DNA of 64,000 nucleotides from Algoriphagus sp. (GTDB taxonomy: Bacteria; Bacteroidota; Bacteroidia; Cytophagales; Cyclobacteriaceae), in assembly GCF_030694375.1 (NCBI RefSeq), contig NZ_JAUXYL010000046.1, forward strand, positions 186,001-250,000, read 5' to 3'. A program made the translations under genes and the position numbers. Positions 30,390 through 58,930 of the stretch are shown here, piece after piece (position 1 is the first letter of the stretch; the number at the start of each line of letters is the position of its first letter). Below the pieces are notes generated by a model. The model searched no databases, was not told where the DNA came from, and saw only the letters and a program-made list of their open reading frames with translations.

Positions 30390-30417
30390 TTTTTCCCGCA
30401 GGTTTCCGGAGAAAAAG

Positions 30418-30439
30418 ACACAGATCAACACAGATTTTT
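30418..30439. repeat. solo fragment of the CACAGATT repeat family
   Basis: ACACAGATCAACACAGATTTT resembles the word pattern of the elements flanking the GxxExxY gene at 36387. Only one arm is present, so it looks like a remnant or solo arm between two ordinary genes. Confidence 0.55.
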
Positions 30440-30504
30440 GAGAAAGACAAATCTCCGACTTTCTAACTCCCCTTGACCTCCCAACTTCCTTACCTCCGAA
30501 ACCC

Positions 30505-35748: not shown

Positions 35749-36162
35749 TTATGCGTTCAGTGTATATTCCACACTGATCTCCATATTCAATGCCTTGGAA
35801 ATCGGGCAGTTTTCTTCTGCGTCTTTTACCTGCTTGGCAAATTCTTCTTCGGAGATGCCTTCTACCTGAGCCTTAAGCACTAAGTGAGATTTCTTCAGCG
35901 TGCCGTCCTCAAAAGTGATGTTGGAAGTTACGTTTAGTTCCTTCGGAGGAAAATTGGCAGCGGTCAGGTTGAAGCTGAGCTTCATCGCAAAGCAGCCAGA
36001 ATGAGCGGCAGCGATGAGTTCTTCGGGATTTGTTCCTACTCCGTCTTCAAATCGGGTGTTGAAAGAGTATTGTGTTTTGTTTAAGACAGTGCTTGCTGTG
36101 GTCAAATGGCCTTTGCCTTCTTTTCCGGTTCCGTTCCAAACGGCAGTTGCTTTTCTGATCAT
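35749..36162 (-). CDS. OsmC family peroxiredoxin-like protein
   Basis: Thiol-dependent peroxidase of the OsmC/Ohr fold, protecting against organic hydroperoxides. The 137-residue protein has the two redox cysteines in AHSGCFAM and EENCPISK and the start segment RKATAVWNGTGKEGKG. The order matches OsmC (about 140 residues). A partial duplicate of its 3' end lies just downstream, and one arm of the CACAGATT element lies 76 bp above its start. Confidence 0.93.
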   Translation of the reverse strand: MIRKATAVWNGTGKEGKGHLTTASTVLNKTQYSFNTRFEDGVGTNPEELIAAAHSGCFAMKLSFNLTAANFPPKELNVTSNITFEDGTLKKSHLVLKAQVEGISEEEFAKQVKDAEENCPISKALNMEISVEYTLNA

Positions 36163-36237
36163 GGGATTAAAGAGATTTGAGGTTAAAATATGGTATTATA
36201 AGGCTTTTTGAAGGGTTTAAGTTTCTTGTTTTTTGAA

Positions 36238-36367
36238 TTTCCCACAGATTTTCACGGATTAAAATCACAGATTAACACAGAAATTAGGCAATATATCTGA
36301 ACTAAAAATAAAGAAATTCAAAAAATCTGTGCTAATCCGTGCCCTTTTCTGTGCTAATCTGTGGGAA
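36238..36367. repeat. inverted-repeat element A1 (CACAGATT words), left of GxxExxY gene
   Basis: The ends TTCCCACAGATT (36239-36250) and AATCTGTGGGAA (36356-36367) are a perfect 12-bp inverted repeat. The arms are built of repeated CACAGATT/CACGGATT words and their complements, giving a long imperfect hairpin. The first 46 bases match the left arm of element A2 (36775-36820) with only two differences, so A1 and A2 are direct copies bracketing the gene. Confidence 0.85.
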
Positions 36368-36386
36368 CTATTTTTTAATTTAGACA

Positions 36387-36767
36387 ATGCACGAGAATGA
36401 AATCACATTTTTAATCCGGGGTGCAATTTTTAAAGTGTACAATACCCTCGGCCCGGGGCTATTGGAATCGAGCTATGAGGCGGCGATGGGATATGAATTG
36501 ATCAAATCTGGGCTTTTGGTTGAGCATCAAGTTGGACTTCCTTTAATCTATGAGGATTTAAAATTGGATGTTGGTTATCGAATAGATTTGTTGATAGAGA
36601 AAAGGGTAATCGTTGAAATTAAATCAGTGGAGCGTTTACTAAATGTTCACCATTTGCAAATAATGACATATTTAAGACTGTCACGTGTAAAGGTTGGTCT
36701 TTTGGTTAACTTCAATACAGATGATTTGTCAGAGAACATTATTCGGAAGATCAATGGATACCTCTAA
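36387..36767 (+). CDS. GxxExxY protein, PD-(D/E)XK nuclease fold (copy 1)
   Basis: 126 residues. The name-giving G-L-L-E-S-S-Y motif is at residues 24-30. Nuclease-fold positions are Glu27, Asp67 (YRID), Glu77-x-Lys79 (VEIK) and Gln91, the PD-(D/E)XK arrangement described for PF13366-type proteins. No partner gene is present. It is flanked on both sides by nearly identical inverted-repeat elements A1 and A2 and is a paralog of the protein at 58435. Its role is unknown; it could act on the repeats. Confidence 0.92.
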   Translation: MHENEITFLIRGAIFKVYNTLGPGLLESSYEAAMGYELIKSGLLVEHQVGLPLIYEDLKLDVGYRIDLLIEKRVIVEIKSVERLLNVHHLQIMTYLRLSRVKVGLLVNFNTDDLSENIIRKINGYL

Positions 36768-36774
36768 TGCCCAG

Positions 36775-36884
36775 TTTCCCACAGATTGTCACGGATTAAA
36801 ATCACAGATTGACACAGAAAGTGATAACACCCCATCAAAAAATCTGTGTTAATCTGTGTTCTTTTCTGTGCAGATCTGTGAGAA
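36775..36884. repeat. inverted-repeat element A2 (CACAGATT words), right of GxxExxY gene
   Basis: Left arm 36775-36820 matches A1 at 44 of 46 bases; the right arm 36837-36884 is an imperfect inverted copy. Its outer end GTGAGAAC abuts the stop codon of the DUF1972 glycosyltransferase (TAG at 36887-36885 on the minus strand), so the element sits directly on a gene end. Confidence 0.85.
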
Positions 36885-38009
36885 CTAATTTTTCACCAAG
36901 CTAAAAAAAACCTCCAAATACTGCTCCGTCACATAATCCCAATTGTACTTCTGAGTCAATCCGGATCGGGCAATTAGGCGGAATTCATTCATTTTTTCGG
37001 GTTCAGCCTCAGCTTTTTCCACAATCTCCTTCAGGGATTCTGGATTTTTCTCAAAATACCAACCATGCTTTCCGTTTTGAAGCATTTCCTGATTGAATGG
37101 GGTGTCCAATGCCAAAATCGCACATCCGTATCCCAAGGCTTTCAACATCGCCGGATTGGTCCCACCAAACTCATGTCCGTGGAAATAGGCGTAGCAGTGT
37201 GAGTATAGTGCCGCCAATTCATTCGGGTCCTTCACGTATCCCGTGAAAAGAAGCCGCTCGTCCTTCAGATTCTTCAACCGATTTGCCCAAGCATCTTCAA
37301 AAGGAACATCGCCGACAATCACCAATTTTCGTAGGGAATCGGACTTCAAAAAGCCTTCAATGATCAGATCCGCATTATTGTCCGGCACCAACCTTCCGAC
37401 AATAAGCAAATAACCTTGGCTTGCCAAATTCCATTTCTTGATTGGTTTGGATTCCACAGCTTCGCGTGGATTAGCTCCATAAGCGATTACTTTGGAATCT
37501 GCCTTGAAAAGCTCCAGATATACACGACGCATTTCATCGGAGTCGTTGATGATTTGATCGTAGAATTTGGTTGCCATCTTGGAAGCCCAGAAGAAATATT
37601 TTGAACCCAAGCCTTTCCATTTGGGGCGCAACCATTCCAGCCCATCGACATTTATCGCTGTAGGTTTCCCAAAAAGTTTTGAAATCAAGCCAAAAGGGCC
37701 ATTGCCGCTATTTACCACAAAAATCACATCCACATCCGAGAAGCAGGCATGGATCATCGAAAAGAAGGTATGTGTCAGTTGAGTCAGGCTCTTGGACTCG
37801 ATAGCAGGGGTATAAATGCATTCAATTCCATTGACAAATCGAGGTCGATCTGCAAATAAAGCCCGATGATTATATACACGTACATGCACTCCTTTGATAA
37901 CCAATCGCTCGCCCAGTTCCTTGATCATCGTGTCGTATCCACCATAGACATAGGGATAGCCTTTGGCCCCCATGATGGCGACTTTTAGCTTTTTTTCAGG
38001 TGCAGCCAT
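36885..38009 (-). CDS. glycosyltransferase with DUF1972 N-terminus (GT1/GT4, rhamnosyltransferase-like)
   Basis: 374 residues. The opening VAIMGAKGYPYVYGGYDTMIKEL is the DUF1972 signature of rhamnosyl- or other glycosyltransferases of capsule loci. The C-terminal GT4-type domain has LLIVGRLVPDNN, the nucleotide-sugar region YFHGHEFGGTNPAML and the LA(L/I)DTPFNQE segment. The last gene of the polysaccharide operon; its start overlaps the preceding GT4 gene by 25 bp. The donor sugar cannot be assigned from sequence. Confidence 0.87.
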   Translation of the reverse strand: MAAPEKKLKVAIMGAKGYPYVYGGYDTMIKELGERLVIKGVHVRVYNHRALFADRPRFVNGIECIYTPAIESKSLTQLTHTFFSMIHACFSDVDVIFVVNSGNGPFGLISKLFGKPTAINVDGLEWLRPKWKGLGSKYFFWASKMATKFYDQIINDSDEMRRVYLELFKADSKVIAYGANPREAVESKPIKKWNLASQGYLLIVGRLVPDNNADLIIEGFLKSDSLRKLVIVGDVPFEDAWANRLKNLKDERLLFTGYVKDPNELAALYSHCYAYFHGHEFGGTNPAMLKALGYGCAILALDTPFNQEMLQNGKHGWYFEKNPESLKEIVEKAEAEPEKMNEFRLIARSGLTQKYNWDYVTEQYLEVFFSLVKN

Positions 38010-57933: not shown

Positions 57934-58299
57934 ATGGATCTACTCACCAACATCGTCATCGGCTTGGTAGCCGCACTTCATCTGTATTTTTTATGGTTTG
58001 AAATGTTTGCCTGGGAGACCACAGGAAGGAAAATATTTCGTCAAATGCCTGCAGAAATGTTCCCAAAAACAAAAGCGTTAGCGGCAAATCAGGGATTGTA
58101 TAATGGGTTTTTAGTGGCTGGGTTGGTCTGGTCCTTGGTGATTTTAGATCCGGTTTGGGCGGATAAGGTGGCCTTGTTTTTCCTGACCTGTGTGCTGATC
58201 GCAGGAATTTTCGGAGCGATCACTGCTAGCAAAAAAATCTTTTATGTACAGGGCCTACCGGCACTGGTAGGAATTGTTTTGATTATTTTTAACCGCTGA
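57934..58299 (+). CDS. DUF1304 family membrane protein
   Basis: 121 residues with four hydrophobic helices and the family opening VAALHLYFLWFEMFAWET, then NQGLYNGFLVAGLVWSL and IFGAITASKKIFYVQGLPAL. Function unknown. The last codons and the stop codon (AAC CGC TGA) are the first bases of the following AACCGC repeat, so the repeat overlaps this gene's end. Confidence 0.9.
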   Translation: MDLLTNIVIGLVAALHLYFLWFEMFAWETTGRKIFRQMPAEMFPKTKALAANQGLYNGFLVAGLVWSLVILDPVWADKVALFFLTCVLIAGIFGAITASKKIFYVQGLPALVGIVLIIFNR

Positions 58300-58434
58300 G
58301 ACGCGGTGTACGCGGAGGATTTTGCTCGCAAGCTCGCTTAATTTTCGTCAATTCAAATACAACTTATTTTCCAATAGCTATAGTTTAACTGGCAACATTT
58401 ATTCTCCCCAGAAAAGCGAAGAACGCAGAGAAAC
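58285..58434. repeat. repeat B, left side of the second GxxExxY gene
   Basis: TTTTTAACCGCTGAGACGCGG (58286-58306) starts a 150-bp stretch ending in CGCAGAGAAACC next to the GxxExxY stop codon. Its start pairs loosely with the complement of the right side at 58901-58930 (shared spacing TTTT-A-CCGC-AG-CGC-CGC). The stop codon of DUF1304 lies inside it. Confidence 0.6.
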
Positions 58435-58812
58435 CTAAAGATTATTTACTACTCGCTTCAATCCATTAACCAGTTTGGCAGAATTAAAATTGATTAATAA
58501 TCCAAGCTTGAGATTTGTTAGTTTAAGGTAAGTCAGAATCTGTGCAGTATGAATGTCAGAAAATTCATCAACTGCCTTTATCTCAATAATTACTTTCTCC
58601 TCAACAAGAATATCGATCCTGTACCCCGCTTCTAATCGTAACCCTTTATAGGAAATAGGCAAAGCAACTTGTGATTTAACATTTAGCCCCATTTGCCTTA
58701 ATTCAAAAAGAAGACAGGCTTCGTAGCTACTCTCGAGCAAACCCGGTCCAAGATGTTTATGAACTTCGATTGCTGCACCAATTATTTGAGATGAAATTTC
58801 ATTTTCTGACAT
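58435..58812 (-). CDS. GxxExxY protein, PD-(D/E)XK nuclease fold (copy 2)
   Basis: 125 residues, collinear with copy 1 at 36387 with all key positions at the same numbers: G-L-L-E-S-S-Y at 24-30, Asp67, Glu77-Ile-Lys79 and Gln91. About half of the residues are identical by eye. Flanked by a different repeat family (B) on both sides. No neighbour suggests a partner. Confidence 0.92.
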
Positions 58813-58900: not shown

Positions 58901-58930
58901 CTTTGCGAACTTTGCGCCTTTGCGGTAAAA
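58901..58930. repeat. repeat B, right side of the second GxxExxY gene
   Basis: CTTTGCGAACTTTGCGCCTT continues TGCGGTAAAA. On the complement it reads TTTTACCGCAAAGGCGCAAAG, a word-repeat widespread in Bacteroidota intergenic DNA, oriented inversely to the left side at 58285. Confidence 0.6.

Follow-up and report, generated by a model that had tools for sequence, protein, structure and literature searches.

What does a single small nuclease-like gene do between two related copies of an inverted repeat? The question is raised by a locus of Algoriphagus sp. in a stretch of 64,000 nucleotides, which we call the window. The gene (36387-36767, plus strand) encodes a protein of 126 amino acids with a PD-(D/E)XK fold in which D67, E77, K79, Q91 and Y95 are conserved. 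It lies between element A1 (36238-36368), composed of two facing arms with the word CACAGAT and perfect 12-bp inverted ends (TTCCCACAGATT / AATCTGTGGGAA), and a second two-arm element, A2 (36775-36885), with imperfect inverted ends; neither element is assigned a strand. Their left arms (36238-36283 and 36775-36820) are identical at 44 of 46 bases (96% over 46 nt). The neighbouring ORFs are both encoded on the minus strand, the left one (35749-36162) being OsmC-like as judged by eye and the right one (36885-38009) glycosyltransferase-like, a name taken from an earlier, sequence-only reading of this DNA. The last base of A2, 36885, falls on the stop codon of the latter ORF (CTA on the plus strand, 36885-36887). 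The sequence-only reading had described a GxxExxY gene between two dyad elements, and this layout is confirmed by the profile matches given below and by the arm identity; inspection of the sequence likewise bore out the 12-bp inverted ends of A1, the imperfect ones of A2 and the contact of the right element with the neighbour's stop codon.

The arm sequence is not confined to this place. With up to 3 mismatches, the pattern CACAGATTNNCACNGATT matches the window 14 times, a number that none of 100 shuffles reached (mean 2.14), and with up to 2 mismatches it has 60 + 41 = 101 matches genome-wide versus 2 + 1 = 3 for the reversed pattern. Two further features of the window had been overlooked. 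A second GxxExxY gene (58435-58812, minus strand) is flanked by words that differ from CACAGAT, with CGCTGAG/CGCGGAG/CGCAGAG words on one side (58294-58430) and CGCAAAG words on the other (58901-58926), both without assigned strand. A gene-less one-arm element is found at 30391-30441 on the plus strand, where the closest genome, G016, has about 560 bp of other sequence.

The protein matches TIGR04256 GxxExxY (E 1.6e-38, 131.6 bits, cut-off 35) and PF13366 PDDEXK_3 (E 1e-38, 132.7 bits, cut-off 22), and these are its only Pfam/NCBIfam matches, so the window gene does not encode a Y1 HUH protein. In an alignment of 92 proteins, the residues of the name-giving motif, G24, E27 and Y30, are each present in 91, and D67, K79, Q91 and N108 in all 92, E77 in 91 and Y95 in 90. 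We equate D67, E77/K79 and Q91/Y95 with the motifs D, ExK and QxxxY known from Cas4/RecB-like nucleases. The structure model has a mean pLDDT of 92, and its best structural match is the Cas4 protein SSO0001 (4ic1; Z 9.4, rmsd 4.0 over 102 residues); the archaeal resolvase Hjc was matched by the model with Z 7.0. A Foldseek search with the model gave no match below E 0.001, and a sequence search for solved relatives gave nothing below E 0.09. Since Z scores of 7-8 are common and no Foldseek E value was below 0.001, these comparisons support the fold family and not a close relative. Comparison with five relatives gave dN/dS values of 0.03-0.08, four other comparisons being saturated; judging from these ratios, the GxxExxY gene is under purifying selection. 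An identity as a known defence gene was rejected, PADLOC yielding weak matches to Cas4 profiles (best Cas4b, E 0.0029) and to RT-associated PDDEXK profiles, and so was that of a known phage gene, for which PHROGs yielded two families without assigned function, with E 0.00075 at best. The protein thus resembles Cas4/RecB-like nucleases in the SSO0001 fold match, the weak Cas4b match and the D/ExK/QxxxY residues, and it differs from them in being flanked by word arrays, with no CRISPR context seen in the flanks that were read, and in the Foldseek result.

The layout is general. The genome itself has six GxxExxY genes, each with short repeats on both sides (by eye), and the words differ: CACAGAT at the window gene and at a gene on contig C13, CACATAG, CACGAAG/CACTAAG, and CGCAAAG types at two genes. 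At the C13 locus (C13:45.3-47.0 kb; L091/L011) the gene is situated between long tandem CACAGAT arrays. Sixty-three loci (6 from the same genome, 29 from the genus, 28 from the phylum) were first compared, using the motif C[AG]C[AGT][AGT]A[GT]. Its density drops from 22.5 per kb in the first 50 bp to 2.8 per kb beyond 1 kb from the gene, whereas the reversed motif stays at 2.5-5.6 per kb. At least two copies within 250 bp are present on at least one side at all 63 loci and on both sides at 38, as compared to 195 and 17, respectively, of 740 control placements in 20 regions. Because the motif had been derived from these 63 loci, 40 further held-out loci were examined, and there it occurs at 17.1 per kb versus 3.5 per kb for the reversed motif, with at least two copies on at least one side at 23 of 40 and on both sides at 12. 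Over the 103 loci of both sets, two copies on both sides are missing at 53. A local alignment of left against right flanks, which is free of any motif, exceeded the 99th percentile of 1162 controls at 31 of 62 loci and at 23 of 39 held-out loci. A strict test for exact 7-mers, which is weaker than flank alignment and from which L131 and L170 were dropped for short flanks, was positive (p<=0.01) at 21 of 61 GxxExxY loci versus 5 of 39 loci of four-helix-bundle genes.

Among Bacteroidota, GxxExxY genes are present in 59 of 118 sampled genomes, and at 93 of 121 loci one word of the form C[A/G]Cn[A/G/T]A[G/T] prevails in the flanks. Several loci devoid of the C[AG]C motif carry other words, for example ATGATT or AGGAT types. 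At L245, L247, L248, L253 and L264 the genes are flanked by AATCATAGTTCAGAC / ATGATTnnnATGATT, which shows that the vocabulary extends beyond the C[AG]C motif. Outside this phylum, four plasmid loci were read by eye and with the word caller: the Gemmatirosa locus has CGCAGAG arrays (CCTCTGCG) on both sides, the Fusobacteria locus a repeat on both sides, the Sphingomonas locus CGCGAAG words on one side, and the Treponema locus only one CACGGAT on each side. Carriage by mobile DNA was rejected, as tblastn with the window protein (E 1e-5) had matches in 8 of 72,556 plasmid records and gave nothing among 50,697 phage records, though such a search may overlook distant relatives.

The arms are arrays of words. 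A typical gene-less arm, read by eye, consists of TTCCCACAGAT, 3 bases, CACAGAAAAAG, 1 base and CACAGATTTTCACAGATT, which amounts to four words in two pairs; in two-arm elements, A1 and A2 among them, two such arms face each other. At the 93 genes with a word class, consecutive words on the same strand are spaced by 8, 9 and 10 bases in 49, 75 and 93 cases; further spacings are less frequent (23 cases at 13 bases, others 17-23). The arms were compared in 35 two-arm elements from loci chosen for clear arrays, six of them from the single array L011, with 12 elements of unequal linker lengths set aside. Within the words, 435 of 490 positions agree between the arms. Complementarity in the linkers is limited to 17 of 88 positions, where composition alone would give 29%, and at the fourth word position 35 of 70 are complementary across the arms. 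The arms are therefore kept as words and not as stems. The element ends read GTTCCCAC, with TTTCCCACAG and GTGGGAAC at the two ends. The lack of kept stems, the recurrence of words about once per helical turn and the conserved nuclease residues together favour recognition of double-stranded words over RAYT-type hairpins. A tandem array in G058 (L306, C4:96000-98400) has no GxxExxY gene and repeats a unit of about 200 bp in which one arm is of the CGC type and one of the CAC type.

The flanking word differs between genes of one genome and tracks the protein rather than the host. Of the 121 loci, 93 could be assigned to one of eight word classes and 28 were not classifiable. On a tree of 92 different proteins (L108 was left out as no open frame was found), the word classes require 26 changes, versus a mean of 62.1 when shuffled, and none of 200 shuffles was as low; taxonomic family codes require 35. 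Counted by word base, there are 4 changes for the last, 10 for the second and 15 for the fifth. A set of 51 rows that omits the genus-level sample (47 phylum loci, 3 plasmid loci and the window gene) was used to compare each protein with its nearest relative from another taxonomic family. The word class is the same in 33 of the 51 (shuffled mean 7.6, maximum 19 in 5000), and the last base is shared in 49, the second in 46 and the fifth in 38, the shuffled maximum for the fifth being 37. Among loci within one genus, 5 of 34 pairs have the class in common, no more than chance. In nearest pairs from different genera, with a median protein identity of about 63%, the word is kept and the linkers are not. 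Residue 19 varies along with the word: where the word ends in G it is K or R in 57 of 67 rows, and where the word ends in T it is N in 19 of 25; counting independent pairs is underpowered for this coupling, with 2 pairs on supported branches. The coupling of word and protein could partly reflect shared descent of one linked unit.

The site itself, between the OsmC-like and glycosyltransferase-like anchors, could be classified for 28 of the 59 genomes of the genus and for two additional named species, 30 genomes in all. The gene is present in 11. In 14 genomes it is lacking, with 119-156 bp between the neighbours, and these are too diverged for the junctions to be read, so that no target-site duplication is readable; the remaining 5, also without the gene, have 164-254 bp, and of these G037 and G056 retain decayed arms (by eye). 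G058 (L090/L096) shows the order element-gene-element-gene-element, a tandem duplicate. In seven of eight genomes the left element and the right one are 87-95% alike, those of L095 and L099 being compared over 50 bases only; in the eighth (L097) the figure is 67%, the left element being of the CGC type and the right one of the CAC type. From species to species, by contrast, words and spacers vary. At L100 and L105 both sides are of the CGC type. Orthologous elements of different species are 66-100% alike; in the four closest species they resemble each other as much as left and right elements do, elsewhere less. At a second site near pheS, the stretches between elements, mostly about 1 kb, are apparently lacking in G016, G058, G032, G033 and G037, judging from match coordinates.

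Gene-less copies with one or two arms are scattered through the genome, many of them single arms and often directly at gene ends. When 12 solo elements were compared with G016, six were common to both genomes and three unresolved, one place holds other sequence in G016, and at two (L026 vs L297, L021 vs L298) the match breaks off at the element, on one flank; no clean empty site was found among the 12. As six of these copies are shared with the sister species and no clean empty site was seen, present activity looks low or old. For the expectation of insertion sites that differ between strains the outcome is mixed: the gene-bearing site is polymorphic across species, but the solo elements compared with G016 include no clean example. 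No GxxExxY remnants were detected in 35 stretches around solo elements (tblastn, nine queries, E 0.01). Small ORFs resembling antitoxins of toxin-antitoxin systems by eye occur between or in place of solo elements (L092:2432-2650, L296). Genomes of the genus have 0-9 GxxExxY matches, 11 of 59 having none, and among the matches listed 17 contain stop codons. CACAGATT pairs average 9.0 in genomes with the gene at the site (n=9) versus 0.72 in the others (n=50), a difference confounded by kinship. Arms in many genomes without the gene would, according to the sequence-only reading, speak against a link between gene and repeat; of the 11 genus genomes that lack a GxxExxY match, one, G029, keeps 4 CACAGATT pairs.

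Taken as a whole, we read the GxxExxY gene together with A1 and A2 as a single unit, with a probability of about one half: a small repeat element of homing-like or selfish character. In double-stranded DNA the protein would bind the array of its own word, and the spacing of the words by about one helical turn suggests that binding would be cooperative. The nuclease would then cut at the array or next to it; with a sister copy as template, repair could convert and thereby homogenise, duplicate or spread arrays, while recombination between flanking copies could remove the gene and leave arms behind. Each step is proposed from sequence comparison: putative recognition of the own word by the PD-(D/E)XK nuclease from the coupling of word and protein, putative cutting from the conserved active site, and putative movement from the polymorphism of the site. 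Counting against this reading are the solo elements, six of 12 shared with G016 and none with a clean empty site, the repeat pairs of gene-less G029, the loci that have no word class or lack two motif copies on both sides, and the four close species whose orthologous elements resemble each other as much as left and right ones do. The data suggest a family of small repeat elements that has attracted little notice and whose nuclease may recognise its own repeats. A much wider claim, which we offer tentatively and consider possible rather than probable, is that GxxExxY proteins form a separate class of repeat elements, in which stand-alone PD-(D/E)XK nucleases would read an evolvable 7-base word in double-stranded DNA through a few specificity residues (e.g. 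residue 19), homogenising and spreading the arrays; the TIGR02436 genes could represent a class parallel to this one, and such enzymes may have produced heptamer repeats that lack an explanation in other bacteria. The coupling would give a testable function to the GxxExxY family, whose names convey none, and offers a source for unexplained short dispersed repeats. A protein lineage that changes its word is a ready-made series of enzyme-target pairs, from which one might read how a PD-(D/E)XK protein of 126 residues chooses a 7-base sequence.

The arrays could also be binding sites through which the GxxExxY protein acts in regulation or insulation (autoregulation, boundary or terminator), the unit not being mobile. 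Such sites would explain that word and protein are coupled, that elements often lie directly at gene ends and that solo copies are for the most part stable from one sister species to the other. Arrays on both sides of the gene and in many gene-less places fit this poorly, however, as do the nuclease residues kept in 90-92 of 92 proteins and the joint gain and loss of gene and elements at one site, and we regard a regulatory role as unlikely. Somewhat less likely still is that the gene is a passenger of arrays that spread or recombine by other means, with the protein acting elsewhere, e.g. in repair, and the coupling due to linked descent. Gene-less copies in G029 agree with this, and for tandem duplication and for loss between repeats homologous recombination is a sufficient explanation, but linked descent does not account well for a word that is kept at about 63% protein identity while linkers are not, for same-genus loci that share the word at chance level only, or for a layout kept by the family across genera. 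Very improbable, finally, is that the elements act as RNA or as single-strand hairpins as in REP/RAYT. The 12-bp ends of two-arm elements and the gene between repeats are reminiscent of hairpin systems; against this, many copies are single arms, neither the linkers nor the fourth word position show kept pairing even though the words as a whole agree, and an Rfam search of 36100-37000 gave no match at E up to 0.1, for which an RNA element was rejected. Because the linkers are not complementary across arms, a hairpin acted on as single strand is unlikely.

Several known systems resemble the unit read here as a homing-like or selfish element. Some transposon ends carry arrays of short transposase-binding motifs, and the present layout, with a gene enclosed by short-word arrays in inverted orientation, is similar to that, but the GxxExxY protein is a lone nuclease and no known transposase. 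REP, BIME and REPIN sequences are dispersed short intergenic repeats, single and paired inverted, that accompany a RAYT (Y1 HUH) gene and are tied to its protein lineage. The GxxExxY elements share with them the dispersed, single or paired inverted intergenic repeats, the nuclease-type gene in between and the tie of repeat to protein, unlike them in the PD-(D/E)XK enzyme, in arms that are word arrays without kept pairing and in ends that read GTTCCCAC. The likeness to REP/RAYT proposed in the sequence-only reading consequently stands as an analogy, supported by the gene between repeats above controls, the dispersed gene-less copies, the site polymorphism and the word that follows the protein; membership is contradicted by a fold that is not Y1/HUH and by the non-complementary linkers. 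The GTAG or CGTC tag of REP repeats, named in the title of PMC3733652, is missing from the element ends. PMC4679880 describes TAACTGA heptamers, intergenic 7-base direct repeats in sets and long arrays with a patchy distribution over Cyanobacteria, Bacteroidetes and Beggiatoaceae; its authors saw no evident transfer mechanism and discuss them mainly as translational regulation. Both systems have 7-base intergenic words in sets or arrays and a patchy distribution, but the word is another one, the repeats are direct, and the passages on them mention no GxxExxY gene. In the literature covered, which leaves out most subscription journals, no publication linking GxxExxY genes with flanking repeats was found in titles and abstract openings, and six typical repeat strings had no occurrence in the text searched.

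Flanking repeats are also seen at another type of small gene. The genome harbors ten TIGR02436 four-helix-bundle genes (L109-L118), and further loci were collected from the phylum (L176-L204). These genes often have inverted, gene-specific short repeats, 13 of 39 loci exceeding the 99th percentile of the controls. As the GxxExxY motif is not enriched at these loci, the four-helix-bundle genes seem to use another vocabulary.
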